64,000 nucleotides of DNA from Parvibaculum lavamentivorans DS-1. GTDB lineage: Bacteria > Pseudomonadota > Alphaproteobacteria > Parvibaculales > Parvibaculaceae. The stretch lies in the NCBI RefSeq assembly GCF_000017565.1, contig NC_009719.1, positions 2,773,001 through 2,837,000 of the forward strand, read 5' to 3'. Positions 33,417 through 61,277 of the stretch are shown in pieces. The notes beneath the pieces were generated by a model, which saw only the letters and a list, made by a program, of their open reading frames with translations, was not told the DNA's origin and did no database searches. Numbering within the stretch: the first letter of the stretch is position 1; each line of letters starts with the position of its first letter. Both the position numbers and the translations under genes were made by a program.

Positions 33417-33468
33417 GGAACACTGAAACCGGCCTGGCGCGGAGCATCGCGGCCGAAGGAGACATGCA

Positions 33469-35526: not shown

Positions 35527-35568
35527 AGGCAGCACACCTTCATGGAGAGCAAGCAAGGAGAGTGAACG

Positions 35569-39000: not shown

Positions 39001-41787
39001 CTACTCTTTCTTTCGTTTCCGCTTAATGGGCTTCGGTGCTGCTGTCAGCGGGGAGGAGAGTTTTTCGTATAGGCCGAAGAGGTGTTCGACACGCTCGCGG
39101 TCATTTGCGAAGGCTTGGCCGCGATAGAGTTTGTCGACGGCGGCATCGAGGGCTCGGTGAGCCTGACGGAGTTCGCGTTTCATCAGGTCGGGATCGTAGA
39201 GATCGGCCAGCGTTGCACCGGGATAAAGCGCGCGGGCGTCGAGCACAGCTTGCGCTAGCGCACGGATTTTCTGTTTCTGAGCTTCGGTAATATCCGGCCA
39301 AGGGAAAGTGTTGTAGACGACGCCGACAGAATACATGTAGTCGCTTTTCATGCGACCGGTGATTGCGCGCATCCAAGCCATGTGCATGCCGCTTGTCAGC
39401 AAACCGAATATCCACGGATCTGCGTCAGGAAGAATGCGCAATTTCTGATTGGCTACTACCTCGGGAGTCAGCCAGCCGATCGGTACGTAGTCGCGTCGCT
39501 CCGAGCTTGTATTGGGTATCACCAAATAGGGTCCGCTCAATCGCTCGTCCACACCAACCTGCGTTGGATAGTCCGCCATTCTCACCGTGCTGGGCCGAGA
39601 ACTCGATAACCGGTATTGACGTACCTGCCGTATTCTTTCTTGAACAAGCGGAAGCTGTCGAAGAAAACTCGGCTCGGCATCTGCGAGATAGAGTATCCAT
39701 CGGAAAAATCCATTTATATACTCATCGCCACCGATGTATTTGCGGAACAGCGGTTCCGCTTCCGGCTCCTGACGAAGAAATTCCTCCTTTTCCATTGTCG
39801 TGAAAGTGAGGATGCCGTTGTCGATCATCTGAACGCCAGTTTTGAGTTTCGGCGCTTCGCACAAAGGAGTGTTTCGTTCTTCGACTACTAGATGTCTGTC
39901 AGCTACATTGACGGCATCAAAAAGATAAGCCGTCAGAGCCTTGTGGCGTGTCTCGACCGGATCGCCCTTGATGTCGGCGTAAGAGAAGAGGCGCTTCTCG
40001 GGCCATTCGCGGTCGCGCCTTGTGAGGCCGATGATGACGACATGAACATGGGCGACGCCGCGCGCGTCCGAGCCCCAGGCGAAGGTACGGTGGGCGAAGG
40101 CGATTTCGAGCTTGCAGCGCTGAAAGAGGAGCGGCCAGAGCTGGGCGACCTGTTCGCCCTGCGTGATTGAGTTGGTGGCGACGAAGGCGATGTCCGCTTT
40201 TCCATGCTGCACATATTCGCCGGCCTTCAGGAACCATGCGGTGACGAAATCAAGCGTGCCGCCGGAGCCGCCGAGCTTTGCGATGTCACGCACTTGCCGA
40301 CGCTGTTCCGCCGTCTGGAATTTTGAGCCGATGAAAGGCGGATTGCCGAAGACATAGGAGCATTTTTCCGGCGGGAGGAGAGCGGCCCAATCGGCTTCCA
40401 GCGCGTCGGCATGGAGGATGTGCGGTGAGGTCCGAAGGGGGATGCGCGCATAGTTGGAGCCGAAGGAGAGGCCGAGCCTGTTATTCATGATGTGGTCCAT
40501 CATCCACATCGCGACTTCGGCTATGCGGGCGGGAAACTCGCCTATTTCGATGCCGTAAAACTGATCGACATTGACTTTCGACAATTGCGCCACGTCGAAA
40601 ATGCGCTGGTCTTTGCCGTCGTGCAGGACGCGCAGAATTTCCTGTTCCAGCGCGCGTAGCTCGCGATAGGCGATGACGAGGAAGTTACCGCAGCCGCAGG
40701 CGGGATCGAAGAAGGTGAGCTGGCCGAGTTTCTCGTGCAAGGCTTCCAGCGCCTGCTGGCGGCCGCGCTTCAGCGCCTTTGCGCGCGCGAACTCTTCATG
40801 CAGGCCGTCGAGGAAAAGCGGCTGAATGAGTTTCAGGATGTTTTTCTCGGTCGTGTAATGCGCGCCGAGGGCGCGGCGCTCTGTCTTGTTCATGACGGAC
40901 TGGAACAGAGCACCGAAAATGGCAGGCGAGATTGCCTCCCATTTGAACTCGCAGGCTTCGATAAGGATCAGCCGCATGGCGGCGTTGAAGGCAGGCGTGC
41001 GCAGACGCTCGGCGAAAAGCGCGCCATTCACATAAGGGAAATTTCCGAGGTCTTCATCAAGGGTTTTCTGGCGCTTGTCTTCCGGCGTGTTCAACACCTC
41101 GAACAATTCATTGAGGCGGGAGCCGAGATCGCTGCCATCCGCGCTTGTGCGGTTCTGGATGAAATCGAGAAGGATGTCCTTGGGCTCGAAAATGCCGGTG
41201 TCGTCGGCAAAGAGGCAGAAGAGAAGCCGGACCAGATATTGCTCAAGGTCGTGGCCGTCGTAACCCGATTCCTTCAGTGCATCGTGGAGCTTGCCCATCA
41301 GCTCCGAGGCTTCGATGTTGACGGGGTCCTGATCCTTGAAGGTGCGCTTCTGGACGCCGATCATGAAGCCGAAGGCTTCCACATGATCTTTCAGATCGGC
41401 GAGGCGGAAACGGACCTCGGTGTCTTCGTCCAGATCGTAAAGCTCGAAGCTCTGGAAATCGCAGAGGAGGAGGTAGCGTGGGAGTTCCTTGTCCTTCAGG
41501 CCCGGGAAATAATCGAGCGCCTGAATCTTTGCCTTTTTGAGGTCGCGGCCCGTGGTCTTGTGCTCGACAAGAAGCGTGCCTTTCCAGAAAAGGTCGATAT
41601 AGCCGCGCTTGTCGCCAAGGCCCTTTACCGGCTCTTCGTAAGAGGCGACGCGACGGCGCGGGATGTCGAAAATCTGGAAGAACTCATTATAGAAGGTCTG
41701 CGTCTCGGCGCGTTCGCGCGTGACACCTTTCCATTCCTCGGAAAAACGCGCTGCGCGGGCGCGAATCTCGTTCCAGCTCAGCCGCAT
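39001..41787 (-). CDS. MmeI-like single-chain restriction-modification enzyme (Type IIG/IIL)
   Basis: This 928-aa protein combines nuclease and methyltransferase. The N-terminal PD-ExK site is D65-X9-E75-x-K77 (IDLFWKGTLLVEHK), with the spacing I recall for MmeI. A helical linker follows, with GAHYTT at 308-313. The adenine-methyltransferase motifs are FDPACGCGNF at 360-369 and NPPF at 482-485. A target-recognition region (about 630-810) precedes the C-terminal segment with GMHMAWMRAITGRMKSDYMYS and NTFPWP, typical of MmeI relatives. Such enzymes methylate one strand for protection and cleave at a fixed distance. The recognition site is unknown. G+C falls in the recognition region (29 of 60 at 39601-39660). 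Confidence 0.88.
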   Translation of the reverse strand: MRLSWNEIRARAARFSEEWKGVTRERAETQTFYNEFFQIFDIPRRRVASYEEPVKGLGDKRGYIDLFWKGTLLVEHKTTGRDLKKAKIQALDYFPGLKDKELPRYLLLCDFQSFELYDLDEDTEVRFRLADLKDHVEAFGFMIGVQKRTFKDQDPVNIEASELMGKLHDALKESGYDGHDLEQYLVRLLFCLFADDTGIFEPKDILLDFIQNRTSADGSDLGSRLNELFEVLNTPEDKRQKTLDEDLGNFPYVNGALFAERLRTPAFNAAMRLILIEACEFKWEAISPAIFGALFQSVMNKTERRALGAHYTTEKNILKLIQPLFLDGLHEEFARAKALKRGRQQALEALHEKLGQLTFFDPACGCGNFLVIAYRELRALEQEILRVLHDGKDQRIFDVAQLSKVNVDQFYGIEIGEFPARIAEVAMWMMDHIMNNRLGLSFGSNYARIPLRTSPHILHADALEADWAALLPPEKCSYVFGNPPFIGSKFQTAEQRRQVRDIAKLGGSGGTLDFVTAWFLKAGEYVQHGKADIAFVATNSITQGEQVAQLWPLLFQRCKLEIAFAHRTFAWGSDARGVAHVHVVIIGLTRRDREWPEKRLFSYADIKGDPVETRHKALTAYLFDAVNVADRHLVVEERNTPLCEAPKLKTGVQMIDNGILTFTTMEKEEFLRQEPEAEPLFRKYIGGDEYINGFFRWILYLADAEPSFLRQLPLVQERIRQVRQYRLSSSRPSTVRMADYPTQVGVDERLSGPYLVIPNTSSERRDYVPIGWLTPEVVANQKLRILPDADPWIFGLLTSGMHMAWMRAITGRMKSDYMYSVGVVYNTFPWPDITEAQKQKIRALAQAVLDARALYPGATLADLYDPDLMKRELRQAHRALDAAVDKLYRGQAFANDRERVEHLFGLYEKLSSPLTAAPKPIKRKRKKE

Positions 41788-43687: not shown

Positions 43688-43715
43688 GAACAACGCAATT
43701 GAAGGAGATATGTCC

Positions 43716-44288
43716 ATGAACAAGCGCGCGACATTTACCGATATGGCGGAGGGGACGCAGGAGGACTGGAGCCGGATCGCCGATGAGTTTCTGCCTTTCG
43801 CAGCGAAGCTGCCGCTGCGGGTGCTCGATCATCTGAGGCTGCTGGACGGGGATTATGGCGGGTTCATCGTCGACCGACTGACGCACAGCATGCAGACGGC
43901 GACGCGGGCGCATCACGACGGGCGGGACGAGGAATATGTCGTCTGCGCGCTGCTGCACGACATTGGCGACACGTTGGGCAGCTACAACCACCCGGACATC
44001 GCCGCGGCGATCCTGAAGCCTTTCGTAAGCCCGGAGAACCACTGGATGGTGGCGCATCACGGAATTTTCCAGGGTTATTATTTTTTCCATTATCTCGGCA
44101 TGGACCGGAACGGGCGGGACCGTTTCAAGGACAATCCGCTTTACGAGCGGACGGCCGAGTTCTGCGCGAAGTATGATGCGCCGGCCTTCGATCCCGAATA
44201 CCGCTCGCTTCCGCTGGAATTTTTCGAGCCGATGCTGCACCGCATTCTTGGCGCGCCGCGTCGGGAGCGGGTGCCCACCGACGGATAA
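43716..44288 (+). CDS. HD-domain protein, PhnZ/MIOX-like oxygenase candidate
   Basis: This 190-aa HD-fold protein has a His in LTHSMQTATRA, the HD pair in CALLHDIGDTLGSYNH, a further His in MVAHHGIFQGYYF and a downstream acidic residue. The pattern resembles mixed-valence diiron oxygenases such as PhnZ, though it could be a phosphohydrolase. The start at 43716 is used because AAGGAG then has proper spacing; the ATG at 43710 is too close. It stands between the aldolase and the first GPH transporter. Confidence 0.7.
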   Translation: MNKRATFTDMAEGTQEDWSRIADEFLPFAAKLPLRVLDHLRLLDGDYGGFIVDRLTHSMQTATRAHHDGRDEEYVVCALLHDIGDTLGSYNHPDIAAAILKPFVSPENHWMVAHHGIFQGYYFFHYLGMDRNGRDRFKDNPLYERTAEFCAKYDAPAFDPEYRSLPLEFFEPMLHRILGAPRRERVPTDG

Positions 44289-44435: not shown

Positions 44436-45878
44436 ATGACGAACGCGGCCTCGAAGGGCCCTGCCGATGCGCGCGGCGCACAGGGGCCCCTTTCGCGCTG
44501 GACGCTGTTTGCCTTTGCGCTGCCGGCGGCGCCGATTTCGGCCATGGGGCTGCCGCTGGTGGTTCACCTGCCGCCCTTCTATGCGGGTTCGCTGGGGCTG
44601 GGGCTGACGGTTGTCGGCACCATCTTCATGCTGGCGCGCTTCTGGGACGTGTTCACCGACCCGGTGCTCGGCATTCTTTCCGACAAGTTCGAGACGCGCT
44701 GGGGCAGGCGGCGGCACTGGATCGTGCTGTCGGTGCCGATCATGCTGCTCTCCGTCTACATGATCTTCATGCCGCCCGTCGCGGTGACGGCCTTCTATCT
44801 CATCTTCTGGCTCTTCGTTCTTTATGTCGGCTGGACGCTGCTCACCATCTCGCACATGAGCTGGGGCGCGGAGCTGACGCCGGACTATCACGAACGCTCG
44901 CGCGTGCAGGGCGCACGCGAAGTGGCGCTTGTTCTCGGCATGGTGCTGGTGCTGACGCTGCCTGTGCTGATCGAGCAGACGAACCCGGAAAACCTGGCGG
45001 CGGCGCGCGTCGCCTCCATGGGCTGGTTTGTGCTGATATTGCTGCCGATCGCTGTCGGCCTTGCCGTGTGGAAGGTGCCGGAGCGGCCGACGACGGCGCC
45101 GGCGCATGTGCCGATGCGGCAGGCGATCCGCGCGCTGGTGCAGAGCCGGCCTCTGCAGGTGGTGCTGGCGGCCGATCTTCTCGGCGGCGTGTCGGGCGGG
45201 CTTGTGGCGTCGATGTTCCTCTTCCTTGCGGAGGACGCGCTGAAGCTCGGGCAATATTCGAGCCTGATGCTGCTCGGCTATTTCATTTCCGGCGTCTGCT
45301 TCATTCCGCTCATCCTGGCGGTGAGCCGGCGGCTCGGCAAACACAAGACGGCGGCCGCATCGGCGGTGTTCAACGCGCTGACCGTGCCGCTCATCCTGCT
45401 GGTGCCGCAGGGCAATGCGATGATGGCGCTTGGCGTCTGGGTGCTGTGCGGCGTCAACATGGCGGCGGGGCCGTTCCTGTTCCGCTCGCTGATGGCGGAT
45501 GTGGCGGATCATGACACGGTGATCACGCGGCAGCAGCGGACGGGGCTGTTCTATTCGCTGCTGACCTCGACCAGCAAGGTGGGCGCGGCCTTCGCGATCT
45601 TCATCGCCTATTCGCTGCTCGACTCAATCGGCTTTCAGGCGGGCGGCGAGAACTCGCAATCCGTGCTCGACAGCCTGCGGGCGGTTTACGTCTGGCCGGC
45701 CTGCATCATCAGCGCGGCGGTGGCGGGCATTCTCTGGTTCTATCCGATCGACGAGAAGCAGCAGGTGGAGAACCGCCGCATCCTCGAAATGCGCGGCATC
45801 GAAGCGGCGGCGACCGCCGTTGCCATGCGGACGGGGCATCCCTCCGACGCGCAATCCTCCGGCATTCCGGCGGACTGA
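44436..45878 (+). CDS. GPH family (Na+/sugar-type) MFS transporter 1
   Basis: This 480-aa protein has about twelve membrane segments and the GPH signature near the second helix (FWDVFTDPVLGILSDKFETRWGRRRHWIVLSVP). The GPH family moves glycosides, pentosides, hexuronides and related compounds with Na+ or H+. The start at 44436 has GGGAGGAA upstream. It resembles the transporter at 46661 closely at the signature and in GWTLLTISHMSWGAELTPDYHERSR, so they are paralogs. The hydrolase gene follows after 2 bases. Confidence 0.85.
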   Translation: MTNAASKGPADARGAQGPLSRWTLFAFALPAAPISAMGLPLVVHLPPFYAGSLGLGLTVVGTIFMLARFWDVFTDPVLGILSDKFETRWGRRRHWIVLSVPIMLLSVYMIFMPPVAVTAFYLIFWLFVLYVGWTLLTISHMSWGAELTPDYHERSRVQGAREVALVLGMVLVLTLPVLIEQTNPENLAAARVASMGWFVLILLPIAVGLAVWKVPERPTTAPAHVPMRQAIRALVQSRPLQVVLAADLLGGVSGGLVASMFLFLAEDALKLGQYSSLMLLGYFISGVCFIPLILAVSRRLGKHKTAAASAVFNALTVPLILLVPQGNAMMALGVWVLCGVNMAAGPFLFRSLMADVADHDTVITRQQRTGLFYSLLTSTSKVGAAFAIFIAYSLLDSIGFQAGGENSQSVLDSLRAVYVWPACIISAAVAGILWFYPIDEKQQVENRRILEMRGIEAAATAVAMRTGHPSDAQSSGIPAD

Positions 45879-45880
45879 AG

Positions 45881-46633
45881 ATGGCGGTGTTTTCGTCAGG
45901 CGGCGCCGACATTGCCTATGAAGTCGCGGGGGAGGGCTATCCGATCCTGCTGGTGCATGGCTTCGCGGGCACGGCCGAGGATAATTGGGGCCGCACCGGA
46001 TGGGTGCAGGCGCTGACGCGGGCGAAGCGGCAGGTCGTGACGTTCGACCTGCGCGGACACGGCAAGAGCGGCAAGCTTTACGAGCCCACCGATTACACGA
46101 TGGAAAAGATGGCGGGGGACGCGGTGGCGCTGCTCGACCATCTGGGGATCGAGCGGGCGGACTTGATCGGCTATTCGATGGGCGCGGGGATCGCCATGCG
46201 GCTTGCGGCGCGGCACGGCGCGCGGTTCCGCTTCGTGGTGCTGGGCGGCGTGGGCGGGCGGATGCTGGAGCCGTCCTCCTTCGGCGCGGCGACGGCCGAG
46301 GCGCTCGAAGCCGCAGACCCCGAAACGATCAGCGACCGGACGGCGCGGGGCTTCCGACTCTATGCCGAGGGGCTCGGCCAGGACCTCCGCGCGATTGCCG
46401 CCTGCGCGCGGGCGCCGCGCGAGGGGGCGGCAACGGATTTTCTCGGCGAGATACGCAACGAGACGCTGGTGATCGCAGGCGCGCGGGACGACATGGCGGG
46501 CGACCCGGCGGTGCTGGCGGCGCGCATTCCAGGCGCGAAGGCGGAAACCATTCCGGGTACGGACCATATGTTCGCGCTGCCGAACCCGATGTTCAAGGGC
46601 GCGGTGATGGATTTTCTCACCGGCTATGTTTGA
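45881..46633 (+). CDS. Alpha/beta hydrolase 1 of the transporter cluster
   Basis: This 250-aa alpha/beta hydrolase has an oxyanion-hole region LLVHGFAG, the nucleophile elbow GYSMGAG and a C-terminal His in GTDHMFALP. It is close in sequence to the hydrolase at 49375 (both with DLRGHGKS/DMRGHGES, VALLDHLG and GYSMGA). It lies 2 bases behind the first transporter and 27 before the second, so they are probably one operon. An ester or lactone substrate imported by the transporters is plausible but unproven. Confidence 0.85.
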   Translation: MAVFSSGGADIAYEVAGEGYPILLVHGFAGTAEDNWGRTGWVQALTRAKRQVVTFDLRGHGKSGKLYEPTDYTMEKMAGDAVALLDHLGIERADLIGYSMGAGIAMRLAARHGARFRFVVLGGVGGRMLEPSSFGAATAEALEAADPETISDRTARGFRLYAEGLGQDLRAIAACARAPREGAATDFLGEIRNETLVIAGARDDMAGDPAVLAARIPGAKAETIPGTDHMFALPNPMFKGAVMDFLTGYV

Positions 46634-46660
46634 GTTCGAACTGTCGAGGCACAACCGTAA

Positions 46661-48022
46661 ATGACCCGCTTGTCGTCGTGGCGTCTGGCCGCGTTCTCTG
46701 GGCCCGCTATTCCCATCGGCGCGCTTGGCCTTCCGATCGGCGTCTACCTGCCGCATTTCTATGCCGGGCCGATGGGGCTCGGACTTGCGGCGGTCGGCAC
46801 GATCTTCATGCTGGCGCGGTTCTGGGACGTCTTCACCGATCCGGCGATGGGGGTGCTCTCCGACAAGTTTCCCTCGCGCTGGGGCAGGCGGCGGCACTGG
46901 ATCGTGCTGTCGGTGCCGATCCTCATGCTCTCGGCCTATATGGTCTTCGTACCGACGGCGCCGGTGTCGAGCTTCTATCTGCTGGCATGGATGTTCTTTC
47001 TCTATATCGGCTGGACGCTGCTGACGCTGTCGCATATGGCGTGGGCGGCGGAGCTTTCCGACGATTATAACGAACGCTCGCGCATTCAGGGTTTCCGCGA
47101 GGCGTTCCAGTTGCTCGGTGTGCCGCTGGTGCTGCTGCTGCCGGCGATGATCGAACGGATGGGGCCGGAGAACATGGAGGCGGCGCGCGTCGCCTCGATG
47201 GGCTGGTTCATCATCATCGTGCTGCCCATCGCGATCGGCCTCAACCTCTGGCTGGTGCCGGAGAAGAAGGCGAAGCCAGAGCGGCATGTGAGCTTCATCG
47301 CGTCGGTCGTGCCGCTGTTCCGGAACAGCCCGCTCAGGCGGCTGCTGGCGGCGGATTTCCTTTCGGGCTTCGCTGGCACGGCGCTGGCGTCGATGTATAT
47401 GTATGAGGCGACGCTGGTCTGGGGCGTCGGTTCGTCGGCGAGCTTGTTGCTGCTGCTCTATTTCTTCGGCGGCATCGGCTTCATCCCGCTGGTGCTGAAG
47501 CTCAGCTATTATCTCGGCAAGCACCGGACGGTGGTGGTGGCGGGACTGTTCAACGTCTGCTTTCCGCCGGTCATTTTCCTCATTCCCTTCGGCAATGTCT
47601 GGGTGGCGGCGGCGGTGCTGTTCTTCCTCGGCGTCAATGTCGGTACGACGACGACGCTTTATCGCTCGATGATGGCGGATGTGGCCGATCTCGACGAGCT
47701 GGAGACGGGGCAGAAGCGGACGGGGCTTTTCTATGCGCTGCTGACGCTGACGCAGAAGATCGGCGGGGCGGTGGCGGTCGGCGTCGTGTTCTGGACGCTG
47801 GCGCTGATCGGCTTCAACCCGGAAGGGGAGAATGCGCCGGGCGCGGTGCAAGGGCTGTCCTATGTGTTCGTCGCCGTGCCGATGATCTGCAACGCGCTGG
47901 TGGCGGCGATCATCTGGTTCTATCCGATCGGGCTCAAGGAGCAGGCGGAGTTGCGCCGCAAGCTCGACGAGCGTTTCGTCGAGGAAGTGGAGCAGACGGA
48001 GCGGGTGCCGAACCTGCCGTGA
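46661..48022 (+). CDS. GPH family MFS transporter 2
   Basis: This 453-aa protein is a paralog of the carrier at 44436. It has the same signature (FWDVFTDPAMGVLSDKFPSRWGRRRHWI), GWTLLTLSHMAWAAELSDDYNERSR, and the late motif RSMMADVADLDELETGQKRTGLFYALLTLTQKIG. About twelve hydrophobic segments are visible. It probably differs in substrate range. It converges with the M20 amidohydrolase. Confidence 0.85.
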   Translation: MTRLSSWRLAAFSGPAIPIGALGLPIGVYLPHFYAGPMGLGLAAVGTIFMLARFWDVFTDPAMGVLSDKFPSRWGRRRHWIVLSVPILMLSAYMVFVPTAPVSSFYLLAWMFFLYIGWTLLTLSHMAWAAELSDDYNERSRIQGFREAFQLLGVPLVLLLPAMIERMGPENMEAARVASMGWFIIIVLPIAIGLNLWLVPEKKAKPERHVSFIASVVPLFRNSPLRRLLAADFLSGFAGTALASMYMYEATLVWGVGSSASLLLLLYFFGGIGFIPLVLKLSYYLGKHRTVVVAGLFNVCFPPVIFLIPFGNVWVAAAVLFFLGVNVGTTTTLYRSMMADVADLDELETGQKRTGLFYALLTLTQKIGGAVAVGVVFWTLALIGFNPEGENAPGAVQGLSYVFVAVPMICNALVAAIIWFYPIGLKEQAELRRKLDERFVEEVEQTERVPNLP

Positions 48023-48026
48023 GGCG

Positions 48027-49283
48027 TTACATGCAGCCGCAGCCGCCGATATGGGCGGCGCCGTCCGGATCGTAGGCGGCGGCGACGGAGCGGGCGGAGC
48101 TTTCGGCCGTTACCGCGAAATCCGCCTTCGCCTTTTCGCGCATCGCGGCGTCCGTCATGAAGTCGATGGCGGTCATGGCGAGCGCCTTGGCGCCGTCGAG
48201 GCAGGCCTTGTCGCCGAGTTCGGAGGCGGCCCATTTCGCGAATTCCGGATTGTGGATCACGACATGGGGCGGGGCGCAGGCGATCATCGGATGGATCGAC
48301 GGCACGCGGTGGCTGACATTGCCCATGTCGGTGCTGCCGGCGGAGCCGGAGGGCATTTTCGACAGGGGGAAAAAGTCACGGCCAAGCGAGCGGGCATTGG
48401 CTTCGTATGAATCCGCAATCGCCATGCTGGTCTTCAGGTCGAGATAGTCGGCCTTGGCCCACATGATTTCCGCGGTGCAGCCGGTCGCCAGCGCGCCGGC
48501 TTCAAAGCAGGCCTGTACGCGCTTTTTCAGCGGCGCGAGCTCTTCGGCGGAGGCGGCGCGGACATAGAAGAGGCCGGAGGTTTCATCCGGCACGATGTTG
48601 GGCGCGCTGCCGCCCTTCTTGATGATGCCGTGGATGCGCTCGGTCGGCCTGATGTGCTGGCGGAGCTGCGCGATTGCCTGATAGGCGGTGATGAGCGCAT
48701 CAAGCGCGTTGAGGCCCATATGCGGCATGGCGGAGGCATGCGCCGAACGGCCGCGATAGGTGACGGCGACTTCGGAGACGCAGATGCAGGGCATGGTGAC
48801 GAGATCGACGCCGGCCGGATGCACCATCATGGCGGCGTCGAGCCTGTCGAAGGCGCCTTCGCGCGCCATCAACTCCTTGCCGCCGCCCATTTCCTCGGCC
48901 GGGGTGCCGAGATAGCGGACGCGGCCAGGAAGTTTCGCGCCGAGCTTTGCAAGCGCGAGCGAAGCGCCGAGGCCTGTCGTCGCGATGATGTTGTGACCGC
49001 AGGCATGGCCGATGCCGGGAAGGGCGTCATATTCGGAGAGGATCGCGACTTCGGGGCCGCGCTCGCCGAAGCGCGAGGCATAGGCGGTGGGGAGGCCGAA
49101 GGCGCCGCGGGTGACGGGAAGGCCCGCCGCGTCGAGGCGGGCGGTGAGGATGCGCGCGGCCTCGTGCTCATGGAAGGCGAGTTCGGGCTTGCCGTGGATT
49201 TCATGGCTGACGCCGAGGAGCTCGGCGGACATGGCGTCGATGGCATCGCAGACTTCGCGCTTGAGGGCGGCGGCTTCGGTCAT
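48027..49283 (-). CDS. M20 family amidohydrolase
   Basis: This 418-aa metal-dependent amidohydrolase has the motif GIGHACGHNIIATTG, EMGGGKELM (acidic residues) and NVSHRVPSIHPM, with an insert lid domain in the middle. M20D members cleave N-acyl amino acids, indole-acetyl conjugates or p-aminobenzoyl-glutamate. The start at 49283 (MTEAAALKRE) fits; the frame is open upstream. Its divergent neighbour is a second alpha/beta hydrolase. Confidence 0.85.
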   Translation of the reverse strand: MTEAAALKREVCDAIDAMSAELLGVSHEIHGKPELAFHEHEAARILTARLDAAGLPVTRGAFGLPTAYASRFGERGPEVAILSEYDALPGIGHACGHNIIATTGLGASLALAKLGAKLPGRVRYLGTPAEEMGGGKELMAREGAFDRLDAAMMVHPAGVDLVTMPCICVSEVAVTYRGRSAHASAMPHMGLNALDALITAYQAIAQLRQHIRPTERIHGIIKKGGSAPNIVPDETSGLFYVRAASAEELAPLKKRVQACFEAGALATGCTAEIMWAKADYLDLKTSMAIADSYEANARSLGRDFFPLSKMPSGSAGSTDMGNVSHRVPSIHPMIACAPPHVVIHNPEFAKWAASELGDKACLDGAKALAMTAIDFMTDAAMREKAKADFAVTAESSARSVAAAYDPDGAAHIGGCGCM

Positions 49284-49374
49284 TTTTCTTCTCCCCGTTT
49301 TGACGAAGCGTAGACTGTTGCGGCATGGTTTTCCAGCCATGCGGCGGCGCTGGAATTCATGCGGGAAGGGCGAC

Positions 49375-50121
49375 ATGGACTATTTCGAATCCGACGGGTT
49401 GAGGCTGGCCTATTTCGCGGAGGGCGAGGGGACGCCGATCGTGCTGGCGCACGGGTTTGCCTCGACGCATCGGGTGAACTGGATCGCGACGGGGTGGAGC
49501 CGGGCGCTGATGGAGGCGGGGTTTCGCGTCATCATGCCGGACATGCGGGGACATGGGGAGAGCGACAAGCCGCATGATGCGGAGGACTACACACTCTCCG
49601 CGATGGCGGCGGATCTTGTGGCGCTGCTCGATCATCTGGGCGAGCCGGGCGCGGACCTTATGGGCTATTCGATGGGGGCGATGGTGGCGCTGGTCGCGGC
49701 GACGGAATGGCCGGACCGGTTCGACCGGGTGATCGCGGCGGGCGTGGGCGCGCGGCTGCTCGCGGCGGACCGCGACCCGAGGCCGGTGATCGAGGCGCTG
49801 CTGGCGGACGACCCCGCAAGCGTGGAGGACGCGGGCGCGCGGATGTTCCGTGTGTTCGCGGATCAGAACGGGCAGGACCGCGCGGCGCTTGCGGCCTGTT
49901 TCGAGGCGGTGCGGGCACCCTTTCCGGCGGAGGGGCTTTCGCGGATTTCGCGGCCGGTGCTGGTGGTGGCGGGGGAGACGGACAGCCAAGCAGGCGCGGC
50001 GGGGGTGCTTGCGGCGCGGATACCGAATGCGCGCGGCTTCACGGTGCCCAAGCGCGACCACATGAAGACGGTGGGCGACCGCGCCTACAAAGAAGCGGTG
50101 CTGAAGTTTCTGGAGGGGTGA
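49375..50121 (+). CDS. Alpha/beta hydrolase 2 of the transporter cluster
   Basis: This 248-aa alpha/beta hydrolase has VLAHGFAST, MPDMRGHGESDKPHDAEDYTLSAMAADLVALLDHLG, GYSMGAM with the nucleophile Ser, and a C-terminal His in KRDHMKTVG. It is a paralog of the gene at 45881 by motif and length. GGGAAGGG precedes the ATG at 49375. It is transcribed divergently from the M20 gene and its stop is followed by a family A repeat. Confidence 0.85.
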   Translation: MDYFESDGLRLAYFAEGEGTPIVLAHGFASTHRVNWIATGWSRALMEAGFRVIMPDMRGHGESDKPHDAEDYTLSAMAADLVALLDHLGEPGADLMGYSMGAMVALVAATEWPDRFDRVIAAGVGARLLAADRDPRPVIEALLADDPASVEDAGARMFRVFADQNGQDRAALAACFEAVRAPFPAEGLSRISRPVLVVAGETDSQAGAAGVLAARIPNARGFTVPKRDHMKTVGDRAYKEAVLKFLEG

Positions 50122-50335: not shown

Positions 50336-51127
50336 TTACCGCGCCGTCAGCGGAGCGAAGCCGAGGTGCATTCCGGCGTCGGTGATCAATGTTTCGCCGG
50401 TGATGTGGTCGGAGCCTTCGCCGCAGAAGAAGACGACGGCAGTGGCGATGTCTTCCGGTGTGCCGGCGCGCTGGAGGGGGGTGGATTCTTCCTGCTGGCG
50501 CTTGATGCCTTCAAAGGTCTGGCTACCGAAGCGATCCGAGAACCAGCGCGTGCCGATGAAGCCGGGGCAGACCGCGTTGACGCGGATCTTCGGAGCGAGC
50601 GAGCGGGCGAGCGAGAGCGTCATGGTGTTGAGCGCGCCCTTCGATGCGGCATAGGCGACGGAAGAGCCGATGCCTGTGACGCCCGCGATGGACGAGACGT
50701 TCACCACCGAGCCCTTGCCCGCCTCTTTCATATGCGGCGCGCAGGCGCGGATCATCTGATAGGCGCCGACGACGTTCACCTTGTAGATCCAGAGGAAGTC
50801 TTCGGCGTTCAGTTCGTCGAGCTCGGCATGGTTGGCGAATTTCGTGCCGCCCGCATTGTTGACCAGCACATCGACGCGGCCCCATTTCTTCACGGTTTCA
50901 TCCACGATGCGGCGGCAATCGGCATCCTCGCCGACATCGCCTTGCGCGAGGATCGCCTCGACGCCCTTTTCCTGACAGGCGGCAAGCGTTTCCTTCGCTT
51001 CGGTTTCGCTTTTTGTGTAGTTGATGACGACATTGCAGCCCTTGTCCGCGAGCTGCAGCGCGACGGCGGCGCCGAGGCCGGTGGCCGAGCCTGTGACGAT
51101 GGCAACCTTGTTCTTGAGCGCCGACAT
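50336..51127 (-). CDS. SDR family NAD(P)-dependent oxidoreductase
   Basis: This is a 263-aa classical short-chain dehydrogenase. The cofactor motif is TGSATGLGAA (TGxxxGxG), NNAGG follows, and the catalytic tetrad includes S in SSIAGV and YAASK. The substrate is unknown; 3-oxoacyl-ACP reductase-like and alcohol dehydrogenases share this profile. GGGAGAA precedes the ATG. Confidence 0.88.
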   Translation of the reverse strand: MSALKNKVAIVTGSATGLGAAVALQLADKGCNVVINYTKSETEAKETLAACQEKGVEAILAQGDVGEDADCRRIVDETVKKWGRVDVLVNNAGGTKFANHAELDELNAEDFLWIYKVNVVGAYQMIRACAPHMKEAGKGSVVNVSSIAGVTGIGSSVAYAASKGALNTMTLSLARSLAPKIRVNAVCPGFIGTRWFSDRFGSQTFEGIKRQQEESTPLQRAGTPEDIATAVVFFCGEGSDHITGETLITDAGMHLGFAPLTAR

Positions 51128-52106: not shown

Positions 52107-52970
52107 TCAGGCCGGTTTGCGCTGGTCTTCCGGCAGGCTCGACAGGAAATCGCCGATCACCTTTTCGAAGTCGATGCGCTTGCCGAGCGTGGCCATGGGG
52201 CCCGCCGTCAGCGCGCCGTCGACGGCGATGGTCTGGCCGTTGACGAAGGTGGATTCGTCGCTGGCGAGGAAGAGCGCGGCGTTCGCGATGTCTTCCGGCA
52301 GGCCGGAGCGGGGCGTCGGCTGGATTTTCGCGAGATGCGTTTTCATGACTTCGGCGAACTGGTCGGCCACCTGCGTGCCGAGACCGAGGCCCGAGCCGAA
52401 GATCGAGGTGGCGATGCCGCCGGGGCAGATCGCGTTCGAGCGCACGAAATGTGGCGCGAGTTCGAGGGCGGCGCAGCGCGAGAAGTGATGCACGGCGGCC
52501 TTGCAGGCGGAGTAGACCAAGGGACCGTAGCCTGCCTGCAACCCGGCGACGGAAGCCGTTGAGATGATGGAGCCGGATTTCTGCGCCTTCATGTGCGGCA
52601 CGGCATATTTGTAGCCGAGCACGACACCTTTCAGCAGGACGCCGACGGTTTCATCGAAACCGTTCATGTCGATTTCCTGAAGCTCGCCGCCGACGCCGCC
52701 ATAGCCGGCATTGTTGAAGAGGATGTCGAGCTTGCCGAATTTCTTCACCGTGTGATCGACGAGGTTTTTCACTTCGTCTTCATGGGCGACATTGGCGCGG
52801 CAATAGGAGAAGTTCTCTCCCAGTTCGCGCTCCATCGCCTCGCCCTTGTGATCCTGCAAGTCGGCGGCGACGACTTTCGCGCCTTCCTTCAGGAAGAGAT
52901 CGACCGTGCCGCGGCCAATGCCGCTTGTGCCGCCGGTGATGATGGCGACCTTGCCGTCGAGACGTCCCAT
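52107..52970 (-). CDS. SDR family oxidoreductase (second in this region)
   Basis: This is a 287-aa short-chain dehydrogenase: TGGTSGIGRGT cofactor motif, NNAGYGG, Ser in STASVAGL and YSACKAA catalytic residues. The C-terminal FVNGQTIAVDGALTAGPMATLG and the length are typical of the classical family. The start ATG follows GGGAGAAA. It lies between DUF427 and a family A repeat; the neighbouring enoyl-CoA hydratase hints at a role in CoA-ester or alcohol metabolism. Confidence 0.87.
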   Translation of the reverse strand: MGRLDGKVAIITGGTSGIGRGTVDLFLKEGAKVVAADLQDHKGEAMERELGENFSYCRANVAHEDEVKNLVDHTVKKFGKLDILFNNAGYGGVGGELQEIDMNGFDETVGVLLKGVVLGYKYAVPHMKAQKSGSIISTASVAGLQAGYGPLVYSACKAAVHHFSRCAALELAPHFVRSNAICPGGIATSIFGSGLGLGTQVADQFAEVMKTHLAKIQPTPRSGLPEDIANAALFLASDESTFVNGQTIAVDGALTAGPMATLGKRIDFEKVIGDFLSSLPEDQRKPA

Positions 52971-53183: not shown

Positions 53184-53984
53184 CTACCGGCCCTTGAACA
53201 CCGGCTTTCTTTTTTCCATGAAGGCGGCGCGGCCTTCCTTGTAGTCGTCGCTGGCGAAGCAGCGGGCGATGAGGGCGTCGCATTTCGCGGCGTCGAAATT
53301 GCCGGGTGCTTTCGTGAATTCGTCCACGACCTGTTTGGCGGTGCCGACGGTGAGCGGCGCGTTTTCGGCGATGAGGGCGCAGTAATCCCGGACGAAATTT
53401 TCCAATGCGTCCTTTGTCGTCACGCGGTTGACGAGGCCCATGGCGAGGGCTTCCTCATGCGTGAAACGGCGGGCGGTGTAGAAGATTTCCTTGGCGAAGG
53501 AGGGGCCGACGACATGCACCAGGCGGCCGGTGCCGCCGGCGCCATAGGCGAGGCCAAGCTTTGCGGCGGGAATGCCGAAGGTGGAGCCTTCGGCGGCGAT
53601 GCGCATGTCGCAAGAGAGCGCGATGCCGAGGCCGCCGCCGATGCAGTAGCCGTCGATCATGGCGATGGTGGGCTTTGCAGTATCGGCGATGGCGTTGAAG
53701 GCCACTTCGGTTGCCGTTTCGTAGGCGAGGATGCCTTCCGCCGTGGAGCGGCTTTCGCCGAATTGCGAAATGTCGGCGCCGGCGACGAAGGCCTTGCCGC
53801 CCGCGCCCTTCAGCACGATGACGCGGATCTCCGGATCGCTCTCGAAATCCGCGAGGATTTGCGGCACGGCCTGCCACATCTCGAGGCCGACGGCGTTCAG
53901 GCGTTCGGGATTGTTGAAGATCATCCAGCCGATCGCGCCGGTTTTCTCGGCGATCATTTTCGAGGTGGGGGAGGAGATGGACAA
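53184..53984 (-). CDS. Enoyl-CoA hydratase/isomerase family protein
   Basis: This 266-aa crotonase-fold protein has GKAFVAGADISQF (oxyanion hole) and MIDGYCIGGGLGIALSCDMRIA, with the catalytic Glu position in PAAKLGLAYGAGG. It probably hydrates or isomerises an acyl-CoA. The long form starts at TTG 53984; an in-frame ATG at 53957 (MIAEKTGAIGW) is equally possible. The gene is near SDR and sulfatase genes of the catabolic region. Confidence 0.87.
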   Translation of the reverse strand: MSISSPTSKMIAEKTGAIGWMIFNNPERLNAVGLEMWQAVPQILADFESDPEIRVIVLKGAGGKAFVAGADISQFGESRSTAEGILAYETATEVAFNAIADTAKPTIAMIDGYCIGGGLGIALSCDMRIAAEGSTFGIPAAKLGLAYGAGGTGRLVHVVGPSFAKEIFYTARRFTHEEALAMGLVNRVTTKDALENFVRDYCALIAENAPLTVGTAKQVVDEFTKAPGNFDAAKCDALIARCFASDDYKEGRAAFMEKRKPVFKGR

Positions 53985-54160: not shown

Positions 54161-55699
54161 TTAAACAGGGGCGACGTATTCGAGCTGGGGGTCGCGGACG
54201 GGGGGGAGGTTGTCTTTCAGATCGGCGAGAAGATCGGATTTCAGCTTGGCGTAGGCCGGGTCGTTCCAGAGGTTGCGGAACTGCCGCGGATCGTTGGCGT
54301 GGTCGTAAAGCTCGCCTTCGCTGCCGTCGTAGATGGTGCCGGGGAGATAGGCGGTGATGGTGTAGCCGTCGCGATAGATGGTGCGGAGGCCGACGGTGGT
54401 GCCGTCGACATGTTTGCAGTCCCATTCGGTGAAGACGCGCTCGCGGCCCTGGGCGTCGCCTTCGGCATCGGTTTTCGGCATCGGCTTTCCCTGCATCCAT
54501 TCGGGCACGGGGAGGCCGGCGATTTCGCAGAAGGTGGGCGCGAGGTCGACCTGGCCGACGGGTTTTTCGACGGCGGCGGGCGCGACCTTCGCGGATTTCG
54601 CGGGGCGCCAGATCATGGGGAGGCGCATCAGCGCATCGACGTGATAGGGGCCCTTGAAGAGCAGGCCGAATTCGCCCTGGAATTCGCCGTGGTCGGTGGT
54701 GAAGACGACATCGACATCATCGCCCCAGCCGCGCTTTTCGACATAGGCCATGACTTTCGCGATGGCTTCGTCGATCAATTCGTTTTCGACATGGGTGAAG
54801 GCGTTGATCTCCTGCACCTGATCGGCGGTCATGTCCTGCGCGCGGAATTCGGGCGGGGCTTCGAAGTTCGTCACGCGCTCGCCGGTGTACCATTCCATCC
54901 AGTGGCGCGGCTTGTCCGCGAGGACGGCTTCGATCTTTTCCTTCGAGCCCGGATAGAATTCCGGCAGCGGCGTATCGCGCCAGGGATGACGGTGAAGTTC
55001 GGATTGCGGCGGGTCCCACGGGTGGTGCGGATCGGGGAAGCTCATCCAGCAGAACCAGTCGTCGCCTGCGCCGACGGAGGCGAGCCAGTCGATGGTGCGG
55101 TCGGCGACCCAGTCGGTGTGGTAGTGCTCGCGCGCGATCTTGTTGAAATGGAGCTGGCAGCCGCCGGTCTCGCCGCCGCCGGCAGCGTTCACCTGAAACT
55201 TGTCGTTGAGGTTCTGGTAGAAATAATTGAGCGCCTCGGGTTCGTTCTTCTTCATCCATTCATTGTAGTGAAGGATGAGCGGCGAATGCGTGGCGAGCTC
55301 CATGTAGTCGAAGCCGCGATGCGGACCGTTTTCGCCTCGCCGCGCCATCTGGCTTTCGTAGAATTGCTGATGGAGATCGAGGAAGGGCTCGAAATGCGCC
55401 TTGCCGATCAGCGCCGTCTTGTAGCCGCCTTTTTCGTTGAGATATTGCGCGACGGAGGGCGCATCGACGGGAAGCGGCACGCCGTTCATCCAGACGCCAT
55501 GCGTCGACACATATTGCCCGGTGATCATGGTGGAGCGGGCGGGCATGCAGACGACGTTCTGATTATGCGCGCGGGTGTAGTTGATGCCGGCTTTTGCCAG
55601 CGCGTCGATGGCGGGTGTGCGCGCGACCTTCTGACCATTCGCGCCGATGGCATCGAAGCGCATCTGATCGGTGGTGATGAAAAGAATTTTCCGGCCCAT
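54161..55699 (-). CDS. Type I sulfatase (formylglycine-dependent)
   Basis: This 512-aa sulfatase has D11 of the metal site in ITTDQMRFD and the CxPxR modification motif C51-M-P-A-R55, where Cys is converted to formylglycine, followed by GQYVSTHG. Later metal ligands appear in DVVFTTDHGEFQGEFG. No signal peptide is visible, so it is predicted cytoplasmic. The substrate is an alkyl, aryl or choline-type sulfate ester; sequence alone does not say. Direct repeats upstream (55828 and 55849) may be regulatory. Confidence 0.87.
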   Translation of the reverse strand: MGRKILFITTDQMRFDAIGANGQKVARTPAIDALAKAGINYTRAHNQNVVCMPARSTMITGQYVSTHGVWMNGVPLPVDAPSVAQYLNEKGGYKTALIGKAHFEPFLDLHQQFYESQMARRGENGPHRGFDYMELATHSPLILHYNEWMKKNEPEALNYFYQNLNDKFQVNAAGGGETGGCQLHFNKIAREHYHTDWVADRTIDWLASVGAGDDWFCWMSFPDPHHPWDPPQSELHRHPWRDTPLPEFYPGSKEKIEAVLADKPRHWMEWYTGERVTNFEAPPEFRAQDMTADQVQEINAFTHVENELIDEAIAKVMAYVEKRGWGDDVDVVFTTDHGEFQGEFGLLFKGPYHVDALMRLPMIWRPAKSAKVAPAAVEKPVGQVDLAPTFCEIAGLPVPEWMQGKPMPKTDAEGDAQGRERVFTEWDCKHVDGTTVGLRTIYRDGYTITAYLPGTIYDGSEGELYDHANDPRQFRNLWNDPAYAKLKSDLLADLKDNLPPVRDPQLEYVAPV

Positions 55700-55827
55700 G
55701 GGTTTCTCCAGCGCCGGCTTCGCTCGCCCGCGTCGCATTAATGTTATTCATTATGTTAGAGGGCGAGGCGGCTATACGGCAAGAGGGATGCCGATTTTTC
55801 AGCGTTTATATCTTACCGAGGCGCGGC

Positions 55828-56375: not shown

Positions 56376-57185
56376 TCAGTTCGCGTCTTCGCCCTTCAAA
56401 AAACGCGTCATGGCGGGGAGCGCCTCGCGATCCTGCAGCATGAAGAGGTGGCCGCCTTCGAAGAAGCGGAGTTCGGCACCCTTGATGCGCGAGGCCATTT
56501 TCTCCTGCGTTTCGGGGAGGGCGATGCCATCGTATTTTCCGGCGCAGATGAGGGTGGGGCAGCGGATTTCGCCGAGCCTGTCCCATGTGTCGTGGGCGGC
56601 GCGGGCTTCGAGCTGGCGGCGCTGACCCATTTCGTGGCCGGGTTCATCCGTATACGGATCGGCGGCGGCCATGGCGACGAGCGTTTCGTATGTCTCGGGA
56701 TAGGCTTTTGCCCATCCGGCGTCGTGGCGGGTGTCTGAAATCGGGATCATGTGGCGGGCGCGCTCTTCGCGGCTCATATGGAGGAGTGTGTGGAGCGGGT
56801 ATGACGCGCCGCCCGCGCCGCCGGGAGAGGTGCAGGCGAGGACGAGGCCTTCCACGACATGGGGATGATTGATCGCCAGCTCCTGCGCGACCATGCCGCC
56901 GAAGGAGACGCCGATGACGAGGGCAGAGCCCCAGCCGATGGCGGACATGAGGCCGACGGCGTCTTCGGCATATTCCGCCATGCTGTAGGGGGTGTCCGGC
57001 TTCGAGGTCCGGCCGAGGCCGCGCTGGTCATAGGCCAGCATGTCGAAGCTCTTCGGGAAGGGCCCATCCAGCACGTTCGGCCGATTACGGAGATCGCCGC
57101 CCGTGCCGGAAATGAACAGGAGGCGGGGGCCGGAGCCCATGCGCTCGTAAAAAATGTCGATGCCGCCCGATTTGGCGAATGGCAT
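56376..57185 (-). CDS. Alpha/beta hydrolase 3
   Basis: This 269-aa alpha/beta hydrolase has LLFISGTGGDLRN as oxyanion region, GVSFGGM with the nucleophile Ser and GGHLFMLQD with the catalytic His. It is less similar to the two hydrolases at 45.9 and 49.4 kb than these are to each other. The start at 57185 (MPFAKSGGIDIFYE) fits. Substrate unknown. Confidence 0.83.
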   Translation of the reverse strand: MPFAKSGGIDIFYERMGSGPRLLFISGTGGDLRNRPNVLDGPFPKSFDMLAYDQRGLGRTSKPDTPYSMAEYAEDAVGLMSAIGWGSALVIGVSFGGMVAQELAINHPHVVEGLVLACTSPGGAGGASYPLHTLLHMSREERARHMIPISDTRHDAGWAKAYPETYETLVAMAAADPYTDEPGHEMGQRRQLEARAAHDTWDRLGEIRCPTLICAGKYDGIALPETQEKMASRIKGAELRFFEGGHLFMLQDREALPAMTRFLKGEDAN

Positions 57186-57377
57186 GGTGCGCTCCCTGTT
57201 GCTTTTGAAAAGATTAACACAAGGGGCGTGAGGGTTCCGCCATTGAACTCGCATGGGGCGGTTCTATGTATTAAGCTCTTATAAGGTGGCCCATGCTCTT
57301 TTATGGGCTGTCCGCTGTTGCGGCCTTGTCTCACGTCCCTTGCGGGCGGGCGGGCCCGGTAGGGAAGGAGCGGGGTC

Positions 57378-58205
57378 ATGTCGAAGCCGGTCGAGAAGAA
57401 TCAGGGGCTGTCCGTGTGCGATCCCGTGTGGGAGCGCGTGCGCGCCGAGGCCGACGAAATGGCACTCGGCGAGCCGATCCTTGCCAGCTTCCTCTATTCC
57501 ACCATTCTCAATCATCGCAGTTTCAACGATGCGGTCGCGTATCACCTGGCGCAGAAGCTCGGCAATGCCGAAGTGCATTCGATGCAGCTTCGCGAGTTGT
57601 TCGACGAGGCGCTGACGGAGGCGCCCGATATCGGCGAGGCGACGCGGGCGGATATCGTCGCCTATTTCGACCGTGACCCGGCCTGCCACTCCTATATCCA
57701 GCCGCTGCTTTATTTCAAAGGCTTCCACGCGCTGCAGGGCTACCGCGTGGCGCACTGGCTGTGGAGCAATGGCCGCCGGGCGATGGCGCTTTATCTGCAG
57801 AGCCGCATTTCCGAACTTTTCGCCGTGGATATTCATCCCGCCGCGAAGCTCGGGCGCGGCATCTTCATCGACCATGCGACCGGCATCGTGATCGGCGAGA
57901 CGGCGGTGGTGGAAGACGATGTGTCGATGCTGCATGGCGTGACGCTTGGCGGGACGGGCAAGGAAACCGGCGACCGCCATCCGAAGGTGCGGCGCGGTGT
58001 ACTGATTTCCGTCGGCTCGAAGGTGCTCGGCAATATCGAGGTGGGCGAGTTCAGCCGCATCGGGGCAGGCAGCGTGGTGCTTCACGAGGTGCCGCCGCAT
58101 TGCACGGCTGTCGGCGTGCCGGCCAAGATCGTCGGCTGCGCGGGCTGCGACAAGCCGAGCCATTCCATGGATCAGATGATCCGGGAAGAGGGCGACGGCA
58201 TCTAA
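57378..58205 (+). CDS. cysE: Serine O-acetyltransferase CysE
   Basis: CysE (275 aa) acetylates L-serine in cysteine synthesis. The N-terminal helical domain (WERVRAEADEMALGEPILASFLYSTILNH) precedes a left-handed beta-helix with hexapeptide repeats and the motifs DIHPAAKLGRGIFIDHATGIVIGETA and LHGVTLGGTGK. Active-site His and Asp are inside these motifs. AAGGAG precedes the ATG. The 192-base gap upstream holds its promoter and a weak GCCCAT/ATGGGC hairpin. Confidence 0.96.
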   Translation: MSKPVEKNQGLSVCDPVWERVRAEADEMALGEPILASFLYSTILNHRSFNDAVAYHLAQKLGNAEVHSMQLRELFDEALTEAPDIGEATRADIVAYFDRDPACHSYIQPLLYFKGFHALQGYRVAHWLWSNGRRAMALYLQSRISELFAVDIHPAAKLGRGIFIDHATGIVIGETAVVEDDVSMLHGVTLGGTGKETGDRHPKVRRGVLISVGSKVLGNIEVGEFSRIGAGSVVLHEVPPHCTAVGVPAKIVGCAGCDKPSHSMDQMIREEGDGI

Positions 58206-59490: not shown

Positions 59491-59766
59491 TTATATCTCG
59501 ATTTTCTCGTCCTTGCGGTCATCGGCATAGATGTCGCAAAGGTCGAGGCAGGCCTCGAAGGGGGCGCTGTCGCGGACATATTCGAGCGCGTCGTCGTTTT
59601 CCCATTCGCTGCGGAAGACAACCTTGCCTGCGCTTTCCTCGACGCTGGACCGCAGGAAGCCGCGGGGCGGATTCCGATCGAACTCGCGCTCCTTGTAAGC
59701 GCGGAGCTGTGTGAGGATGTGGTCAGCTTGCGAGGTTTCAAAGGTAATCAGCAGGGCGACGGGCAT
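59491..59766 (-). CDS. Small ABM-like protein of unknown function
   Basis: This 91-aa protein begins MPVALLITFETSQADHILTQLRAYKEREFD and has a VVFRSEWENDDALEYVRDSAPFEA segment. The strand-helix layout resembles a ferredoxin-like antibiotic-biosynthesis-monooxygenase (ABM) domain, but the match is weak and function unknown. It lies six bases upstream of the amine oxidase, so co-expression is likely. Confidence 0.55.
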   Translation of the reverse strand: MPVALLITFETSQADHILTQLRAYKEREFDRNPPRGFLRSSVEESAGKVVFRSEWENDDALEYVRDSAPFEACLDLCDIYADDRKDEKIEI

Positions 59767-59917
59767 CGGTATTCCTCTTTGTTGCCCGTTCGAGCGGGCG
59801 GTTCCTTGGCGGTGCCGTTCTATAACATATGGGTGCGGCGCTTTCGCGCTTTGCGGGTGGGAAAGAGCGCGGCAGAATGGCGCTCAACAAACATAAATAA
59901 TGGGGAGACAGCCGAAA

Positions 59918-60724: not shown

Positions 60725-60870
60725 CGCGGTGCCCATACCACCTTGCCGGATGGTTCGGCGATGATGTGAGCCTCTTGCGCGCCCTCGCCCCTTTGCGACA
60801 GGGCCACGAGGGCGCCGACGGTCAAGGCGACCGCGAAAATTGTCAGCCATTTTCGAGTGCGCTGCGACAT
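60721..60870 (-). CDS. 49-aa small membrane protein
   Basis: A 49-codon frame reads MSQRTRKWLTIFAVALTVGA, continues with a short hydrophobic stretch and ends in VVWAPR. A ribosome-binding site (GGGAGAAG) lies upstream of the ATG. The stop overlaps the SDR stop by three bases in a convergent arrangement. One N-terminal membrane segment (about residues 8-25) and a polar tail are seen. I do not recognise the family; short length makes coding status less sure. Confidence 0.6.
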   Translation of the reverse strand: MSQRTRKWLTIFAVALTVGALVALSQRGEGAQEAHIIAEPSGKVVWAPR

Positions 60871-61064
60871 TCCGCTTCTCCCGGGGCCCCCACGGCAAGT
60901 GAGAACCGTGGCACGGACCGGAAAACCCCGCTATTGGACGAACCGCCGCAGGCGCGGGTTTACATGACACGGGCCAAATGGTTACAACCTCAGGCGCGGC
61001 CGGAGGGGCCGCCTCCACGCCATTCAGGCCTGACTTTTCAATTACGCGGTGACGGGAGACCTTC

Positions 61065-61277
61065 TTGGACAAGACCGAAATCAAACGTATCGAGGCCTAT
61101 CTTCGCCGCAAATTCCAGCTGCCCGCGATTTCGGTGCGGCAGCGGCCGCAGAAAGACGACTCGGCCGAGGTGAATATCGGCGACGAATTCATCGGCGTCA
61201 TTTTCAAGGATGTGGATGAGGGTGAGACATCCTACGCCTTCAACATGGCGATCCTCGATATCGATCTGGAAGAGTAG
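61065..61277 (+). CDS. DUF3126 family protein
   Basis: This 70-aa acidic protein matches the alphaproteobacterial DUF3126 family: EIKRIEAYLRRKFQLPAISVRQRPQKDDSAEVNIGDEFIGVIFKDVDEGE and an acidic end. The function is unknown. The start is TTG 61065, with GGGAG 10 bases upstream, and no ATG gives a better protein. It converges with an orphan membrane-protein gene. Confidence 0.85.
   Translation: MDKTEIKRIEAYLRRKFQLPAISVRQRPQKDDSAEVNIGDEFIGVIFKDVDEGETSYAFNMAILDIDLEE

Follow-up and report, generated by a model that had tools for sequence, protein, structure and literature searches.

Two carriers and two hydrolases side by side in Parvibaculum lavamentivorans DS-1: an old alphaproteobacterial neighbourhood, with a proposed role in amphiphile import and hydrolysis, rather than a recent local duplication

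We analysed a cluster of five genes in Parvibaculum lavamentivorans DS-1 that encodes two membrane carriers, two alpha/beta hydrolases and an M20 amidohydrolase. The cluster lies in a window of 64,000 bases, corresponding to bases 2773001-2837000 of the single 3,914,745-bp contig of this genome, and the feature positions given below are those of the window. An earlier note, made from the sequence, had described these genes as two paralogous pairs, one of carriers and one of hydrolases, and suggested local duplication of an uptake-and-hydrolysis module. The five genes, their coordinates and their order were borne out by the sequence and by Pfam and NCBIfam profile scores. The spacings that it gave are exact, with 2 bases between carrier A and hydrolase A (45878/45881) and 27 bases between hydrolase A and carrier B (46633/46661). 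The features of the cluster are:

44436..45878, plus strand: carrier A, an MFS_2/GPH-type symporter (PF13347, 258.4 bits, cut-off 27)
45881..46633, plus strand: hydrolase A, an alpha/beta hydrolase (PF00561, Abhydrolase_1)
46661..48022, plus strand: carrier B, an MFS_2/GPH-type symporter (PF13347, 262.9 bits, cut-off 27)
48027..49283, minus strand: M20 amidohydrolase, 418 amino acids from an internal ATG (TIGR01891, 213.4 bits, cut-off 153.75)
49284..49374, no strand: divergent intergenic region between the M20 gene and hydrolase B, 91 bases given an M20 start at 49283
49375..50121, plus strand: hydrolase B, an alpha/beta hydrolase (PF00561)

The M20 gene is convergent with carrier B and divergent from hydrolase B. 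Its longest open reading frame (ORF) extends to 49376; the start at 49283 appears more likely, because a Shine-Dalgarno-like GGGGAG precedes the internal ATG. Carrier A has an alternative in-frame start at 44418. The GC content of the five genes (0.64-0.69) is similar to that of their neighbours (0.61-0.67).

Downstream of hydrolase B lie six further genes that recur in related genomes:

50336..51127, minus strand: SDR1, a short-chain dehydrogenase, conserved neighbour (PF13561)
52107..52970, minus strand: SDR2, a short-chain dehydrogenase, conserved neighbour (PF13561)
53184..53984, minus strand: enoyl-CoA hydratase-like protein, conserved neighbour (PF00378; NF004781, 416 bits, cut-off 291)
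54161..55738, minus strand: sulfatase-superfamily enzyme, neighbour conserved in the family (PF00884)
56376..57254, minus strand: ABHc, a third alpha/beta hydrolase (PF00561)
57378..58205, plus strand: cysE, serine O-acetyltransferase (PF06426, 141 bits)

Conservation within the family was assessed in a sample of 40 genomes of one family, DS-1 included. Hydrolases were sorted by their identity to hydrolase A (53-100% for type A and 42-49% for type B, with a partial 53% match in G010 counted as type B). The hydrolase-A type was found in 24 of the 40 genomes and the hydrolase-B type in 38, while one genome, which is 57% complete, has neither. Gene order was compared over 33 stretches from 32 further family genomes, in which some absences are due to contig ends or stretch edges. 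Carrier A is present in 28/33 of these loci (as a fragment only in L075), hydrolase A in 22/33, carrier B in 29/33, M20 in 31/33 and hydrolase B in 32/33. The divergent M20/hydrolase-B pair is retained in 31/33. Among the neighbours, SDR1 is present in 31/33 loci, SDR2 in 27/33, the enoyl-CoA hydratase in 26/33, the sulfatase in 23/33, ABHc in 20/33 and cysE in 17/33. Carriers A and B are adjacent, with no hydrolase A, in six loci (L067, L070, L086, L087, L088 and L090), and L084 has neither carrier B nor M20 and has hydrolases A and B side by side. A laterally acquired cassette was rejected, as the base composition resembles that of the neighbours and the family as a whole has conserved the block.

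The HD-domain protein encoded directly upstream of carrier A (43710-44288, plus strand) weakly resembles the phosphonate oxygenases PhnZ and TmpB (best PDB match 1.2e-5), and in L085 it lies directly upstream of carrier B. This gene and an upstream class II aldolase gene were considered as core parts of the cluster and rejected because they occur in only 3/33 and 2/33 family loci, respectively.

When named genomes were scanned using an alignment of the hydrolases, 341 relatives were found, the best 80 of which were kept and correspond to 74 loci. The 43 loci outside the family that we compared are 39 of those 74, two plasmid matches and two loci of another family found with a carrier search, a few being near-duplicates. 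The M20/hydrolase divergent pair occurs in 14 of the 43, three of them with gaps of 0.8-1.1 kb. In nine alphaproteobacterial loci of this set the M20/hydrolase-B pair has no carrier detected within the stretch examined (L141, L146, L148, L150, L151, L153, L155, L159 and L161). L112, L114 and L115 combine both hydrolases, A and B, with M20 and SDR1, and no carrier B was found there; carrier A is present in L114 and L115, and L112 starts at a contig end. In the other family, L197 and L198 each have two tandem carriers along with SDR1, M20 and hydrolase B; ABHc and the hydratase are additionally present in L198. Genes for putative porins of the Gcw_chp/TorF kind lie between hydrolase B and SDR1 in four of these loci (two genes each in L112, L115 and L146, one in L197), which is in line with uptake.

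The comparison across both samples shows that the divergent M20/hydrolase-B pair is the most widespread part of the cluster and that carrier B and hydrolase A vary by lineage. It also shows that each of the two carriers and each of the two hydrolases belongs to an orthologous group of its own, four groups in all. The conserved set comprises the carriers, M20, hydrolase B, a short-chain dehydrogenase and the enoyl-CoA hydratase, joined in the family by the sulfatase. The kinds of gene are familiar, and what is conserved is their neighbourhood.

Such conservation need not reflect a common pathway, and the linkage of the hydrolase to cysE, for example, could be inherited gene order and nothing else. 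In 16 of the 43 outside loci (L092 and 15 others), cysE has a hydrolase of the A/B family as its neighbour, in 15 on the same strand and 137-335 bases apart; the S. meliloti pSymB record labels the hydrolase-adjacent neighbour as cysE. None of these 16 loci has a carrier match, 15 have no M20 match, and the genes that separate hydrolase B from cysE vary by lineage. Against this explanation stand the retention of the M20/hydrolase-B divergence (31/33 family and 14/43 outside loci) and the recurrence of the carrier-M20 linkage in another family (L197 and L198). We regard neighbours without a common pathway as an unlikely explanation.

The other question is how the paired genes arose. The earlier note called both pairs closely related. 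Their paralogy is real and above chance, but their closeness was overstated. Carriers A and B are 53.7% identical at the amino acid level over 438 aligned positions (69% at the DNA level over 1245 bases) and hydrolases A and B are 46.4% identical over 248 positions (72% at the DNA level over just 165 bases). Over the 3.9 Mb of the genome, hydrolase B (46%) is the sole close paralogue found for hydrolase A, the next best match being at 35% and most of these matches partial. The best paralogue of carrier A is carrier B (53%), closely followed by a third carrier at a distance of 0.5 Mb (51%). The pairs are thus paralogous without being close and, for the carriers, without being exclusive. Nor do they look like recent tandem duplicates: the rows nearest to them in the trees are same-type genes from other genomes, at 90-96% identity, against 46% and 54% between the paralogues.

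Phylogenies of the hydrolases and carriers were all midpoint-rooted. The hydrolase tree (92 rows) places the A and B types of the family in separate supported clades. Type A groups with L112-L115 (support 100/98), and type B forms a family clade (98/89) amid other alphaproteobacterial hydrolases. Forcing all 55 family hydrolase rows into one clade cost 38.9 log-likelihood units (approximately unbiased (AU) test, p = 0.027), which rejects a duplication confined to the family, the constrained group having been named after the tree was seen. For the carriers, a first tree was built with a quick method from 92 rows, outgroups included, and a second, more careful tree from 57 rows after removal of distant outgroups and of long-branched and near-identical rows. 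The quick tree joins A, B and the other-family carriers to the exclusion of the third paralogue (SH-like approximate likelihood ratio test (SH-aLRT) 95), with the other-family carriers nested on the A side (SH-aLRT 90). The careful tree recovers B as one clade (100/100) and A as another together with L114 and L115 (99/92); the L197 pair joins near carrier A with weak support (90/71 and 87/40). As this tree has no outgroup, it does not show which pair among the third paralogue and carriers A and B is closest. The check proposed with the earlier note, whether the pairs are sisters or come from separate lineages, therefore gave a divided answer, the hydrolases belonging to separate lineages but carriers A and B grouping together. 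The two carriers may go back to an old duplication. Since each forms a family-wide clade and other-family carriers nest on the A side, they were distinct before the family arose, so that any duplication would predate it.

The proposal of a carrier-hydrolase unit copied on the spot, with carrier A-hydrolase A as one copy and carrier B-(M20)-hydrolase B as the other, has some attraction. The carrier-hydrolase order occurs twice, each hydrolase has the other as its best paralogue in the genome, carrier A finds its best paralogue in carrier B, and the quick tree unites the two carriers apart from the third. Against it stand the hydrolase tree and the AU test, as well as the gene contents: nine outside loci have the M20/hydrolase-B pair with no carrier detected within the stretch, six family loci have adjacent carriers A and B with no hydrolase A between them, and L112, L114 and L115 have hydrolase A and M20-hydrolase B with no carrier B found. 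Local duplication of the module was therefore not borne out, given the separate hydrolase clades, the AU result and the M20/hydrolase-B pairs without a detected carrier, and we consider it quite improbable.

What the carriers transport was approached through their family membership and binding sites. Both are MFS_2 members by PF13347 score, and neither reaches the cut-off of TIGR00792, the profile of the GPH sugar symporters (149.7 bits for carrier A and 178.4 for carrier B, cut-off 231.35). Asp77, Asp81 and Lys387, which correspond to MelB Asp55, Asp59 and Lys377, are kept in 92/92 aligned carriers, and Thr140 (MelB Thr121) is kept in 89/92. Roles of the three MelB residues in its cation site are described in the available text of PMC8329300. 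The position of the galactoside-binding Asp124 of MelB aligns with a threonine in carrier B, in an alignment that does not cover Asp19, likewise galactoside-binding. The same text states that galactoside-binding residues are retained only in MelB orthologues, which means that the loss of such residues is not in itself an argument against other sugars. The position of MFSD2A Glu312 is an alanine in carrier A, and over the 92 carriers the commonest residues there are alanine (53), glycine (32), threonine (3) and serine (2). Glu312 coordinates Na+ and the lipid headgroup in MFSD2A and is called absolutely conserved and essential in the available text of PMC10250862. Because of these two replacements, Asp124 to threonine in carrier B and Glu312 to alanine in carrier A, the carriers appear to have neither the MelB nor the MFSD2A substrate signature.

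In a search of solved structures, carrier A favours MFSD2A (5.7e-22) over MelB (3e-14), carrier B slightly favours MelB, and a joint carrier profile favours MFSD2A (1.7e-36) over MelB (1e-27). The predicted model of carrier A has an MFS fold (predicted local distance difference test score 84, predicted template modelling score 0.79), and its best PDB match is MFSD2A (Z 42.0 over 436 residues, 2.1 Å), compared with Z 36.1 for inward-facing MelB. Controls from the same genome rejected this lean towards MFSD2A as a hallmark of the cluster. Another DS-1 carrier, G000:C1:1176427-1177791 (L002, L211), is much nearer to MFSD2A (1.9e-29, against 1.9e-11 for MelB), and the third close paralogue, like carrier B, slightly favours MelB. 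A second control carrier (L001) matches MelB and weakly SUC1, with no MFSD2A match at E 0.001. Of the five DS-1 carriers tested, G000:C1:1176427-1177791 is the nearest to MFSD2A, and its aligned part has no Glu312 equivalent.

The carriers thus share the MFS fold and equivalents of Asp55, Asp59, Thr121 and Lys377 with MelB of Salmonella, but differ from it in the threonine of carrier B and in TIGR00792 scores below the cut-off for both. Among solved structures, MFSD2A, a sodium-lysophosphatidylcholine symporter, comes nearest to the carrier A model and is also the best profile match, and the arginine and aspartates of its Trp-Asp helix II motif are kept in the carriers; it differs in the lysolipid-coordinating Glu312, replaced by alanine in carrier A, and its identity to the carriers is about 20%.

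PF13347 membership and the intact MelB-type cation site would suit ordinary glycoside or sugar symporters (GPH), with the hydrolases acting on sugar esters. The TIGR00792 scores and the threonine at the Asp124 position of carrier B argue otherwise, and no glycosidase family turned up among the window neighbours scanned. In addition, DS-1 did not grow on glucose, fructose, maltose, mannitol, mannose or N-acetylglucosamine, six sugars or derivatives, according to the available text of PMC3368416. We consider ordinary sugar transport very unlikely, and annotations of MFS_2 carriers in this organism as "glycoside carrier" are probably wrong. Least probable, and in our view very doubtful indeed, is that the carriers import lysolipids in the manner of MFSD2A, in a cluster that scavenges lysophospholipids or similar zwitterionic lipids: the joint profile and the structural match of carrier A point that way, but the Glu312 position is mostly alanine or glycine over the 92 carriers and carrier B alone slightly favours MelB.

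Both hydrolases have the fold of PcaD-like and arylesterase alpha/beta hydrolases, and they share with these enzymes the Ser-Asp-His positions. Ser99, Asp203 and His229, which we take to be the catalytic triad, are invariant in 24 aligned rows. They differ from PcaD itself in that their scores of 87.9 and 78.8 bits fall far below the equivalog cut-off of 255.85, and among the 25 NCBIfam matches listed none exceeds its own cut-off for either hydrolase. The nearest solved relatives of the M20 protein are the Xaa-Arg dipeptidase 7yh4 (5.9e-80), presumably PM20D2, and HmrA (1.6e-70), both covering most of the protein. Hydrolysis of Xaa-Arg or similar dipeptides might be proposed from this sequence kinship; the DS-1 protein differs in being bacterial and in having a C-terminal CGC tail. 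His93, Glu130, Glu131, His155 and His325, presumably the ligand residues, are invariant in 16 rows. The C-terminus of the M20 protein reads GGCGCM, and the CGC tail is seen in 9 of the 16 aligned rows, the rest possibly being clipped by match ends. A reading of the M20 protein as a bile-salt amidase was unsupported, and no mention of M20 was found in the available text of PMC8399759. Inspection of the N-termini by eye, with no predictor used, revealed no evident signal peptide in the cluster enzymes, so the carriers would most likely import their substrates and the enzymes act in the cytoplasm. The sulfatase-superfamily sequence contains C-M-P-A-R, which we take to be a formylglycine-type motif.

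With moderate confidence, we interpret the cluster as an old alphaproteobacterial neighbourhood, not a recent local duplication, that would serve cation-coupled import and subsequent cytoplasmic hydrolysis of amphiphiles. Both carriers would be Na+- or H+-coupled symporters, probably old duplicates, that import related small amphiphilic molecules. M20 amidohydrolases act on amide bonds and hydrolases of this kind on esters or lactones, so that the substrate might be a small amphiphilic ester or amide cleaved in the cytoplasm by the corresponding enzyme. The acyl or alcohol parts could then pass to the neighbouring dehydrogenases and the enoyl-CoA hydratase and on to beta-oxidation; DS-1 lives on alkyl chains and did not grow on the sugars tried. 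The idea of uptake followed by hydrolysis, already contained in the earlier note, fits the anatomy of the locus, where two cation-coupled MFS_2 carriers are interleaved with enzymes that have no evident signal peptide.

Several observations weigh against a single import-and-hydrolysis pathway. SDR2, the sulfatase and cysE belong to general-purpose families, and a shared neighbourhood is no proof of a shared pathway. The hydrolase-cysE loci outside the family almost all have no M20 match (15/16), and the M20 gene of DS-1, being convergent to the carriers, is outside their operon. The lean towards MFSD2A is not specific to the cluster, as another carrier is nearer to MFSD2A and both the third paralogue and carrier B lean slightly to MelB, and the amphiphilic nature of the substrate is a weak part of the proposal.

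More speculatively, Parvibaculaceae and their relatives might possess a dedicated pathway for some natural amphiphile with an amide or ester bond, such as an acylated amino acid or a lipid bearing a head group. In it, two MFSD2A-like carriers that differ in substrate preference would supply M20 and the two hydrolases, and the fatty parts would enter beta-oxidation; we put this forward as an unlikely elaboration. If true, it would represent a bacterial import system for lipid conjugates on an MFS_2 scaffold. The analysis corrects an attractive reading of the locus as freshly duplicated, and illustrates that adjacent genes of similar sequence can belong to distinct orthologous groups of long standing. 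The substrate, if found, would give a function to MFS_2 carriers of a surfactant and alkane degrader that did not grow on the sugars tested. Among the papers listed for Parvibaculum on the genome, the proteome, M20 amidohydrolases and transporters, linear alkylbenzenesulfonate, transcription or gene clusters, no title or opening of an abstract dealt with this cluster. Listings on bacterial M20 dipeptidases and on GPH or MFS transporters in steroid and bile degradation offered nothing directly useful.

Elsewhere in the window, two long ORFs on the minus strand (57279-58163 and 59738-61084) have no Pfam match and are antisense shadows of cysE and of a short-chain dehydrogenase gene (59900-60724, plus strand), respectively. 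At 32649-37257, a Gcw_chp/TorF putative-porin gene, the only such match in the genome, is followed on the same strand by genes for the choline transporter BetT (1154 bits, cut-off 695) and the choline dehydrogenase BetA (777 bits, cut-off 732). The TorF genes of relatives lie inside the M20/hydrolase cluster. The interval separating the bet genes from the carriers contains a gene (39001-41787, minus strand) for a restriction-modification protein of the MmeI type, in which all five MmeI Pfam domains are present; relatives of this protein also adjoin the cluster in L059 and L078.

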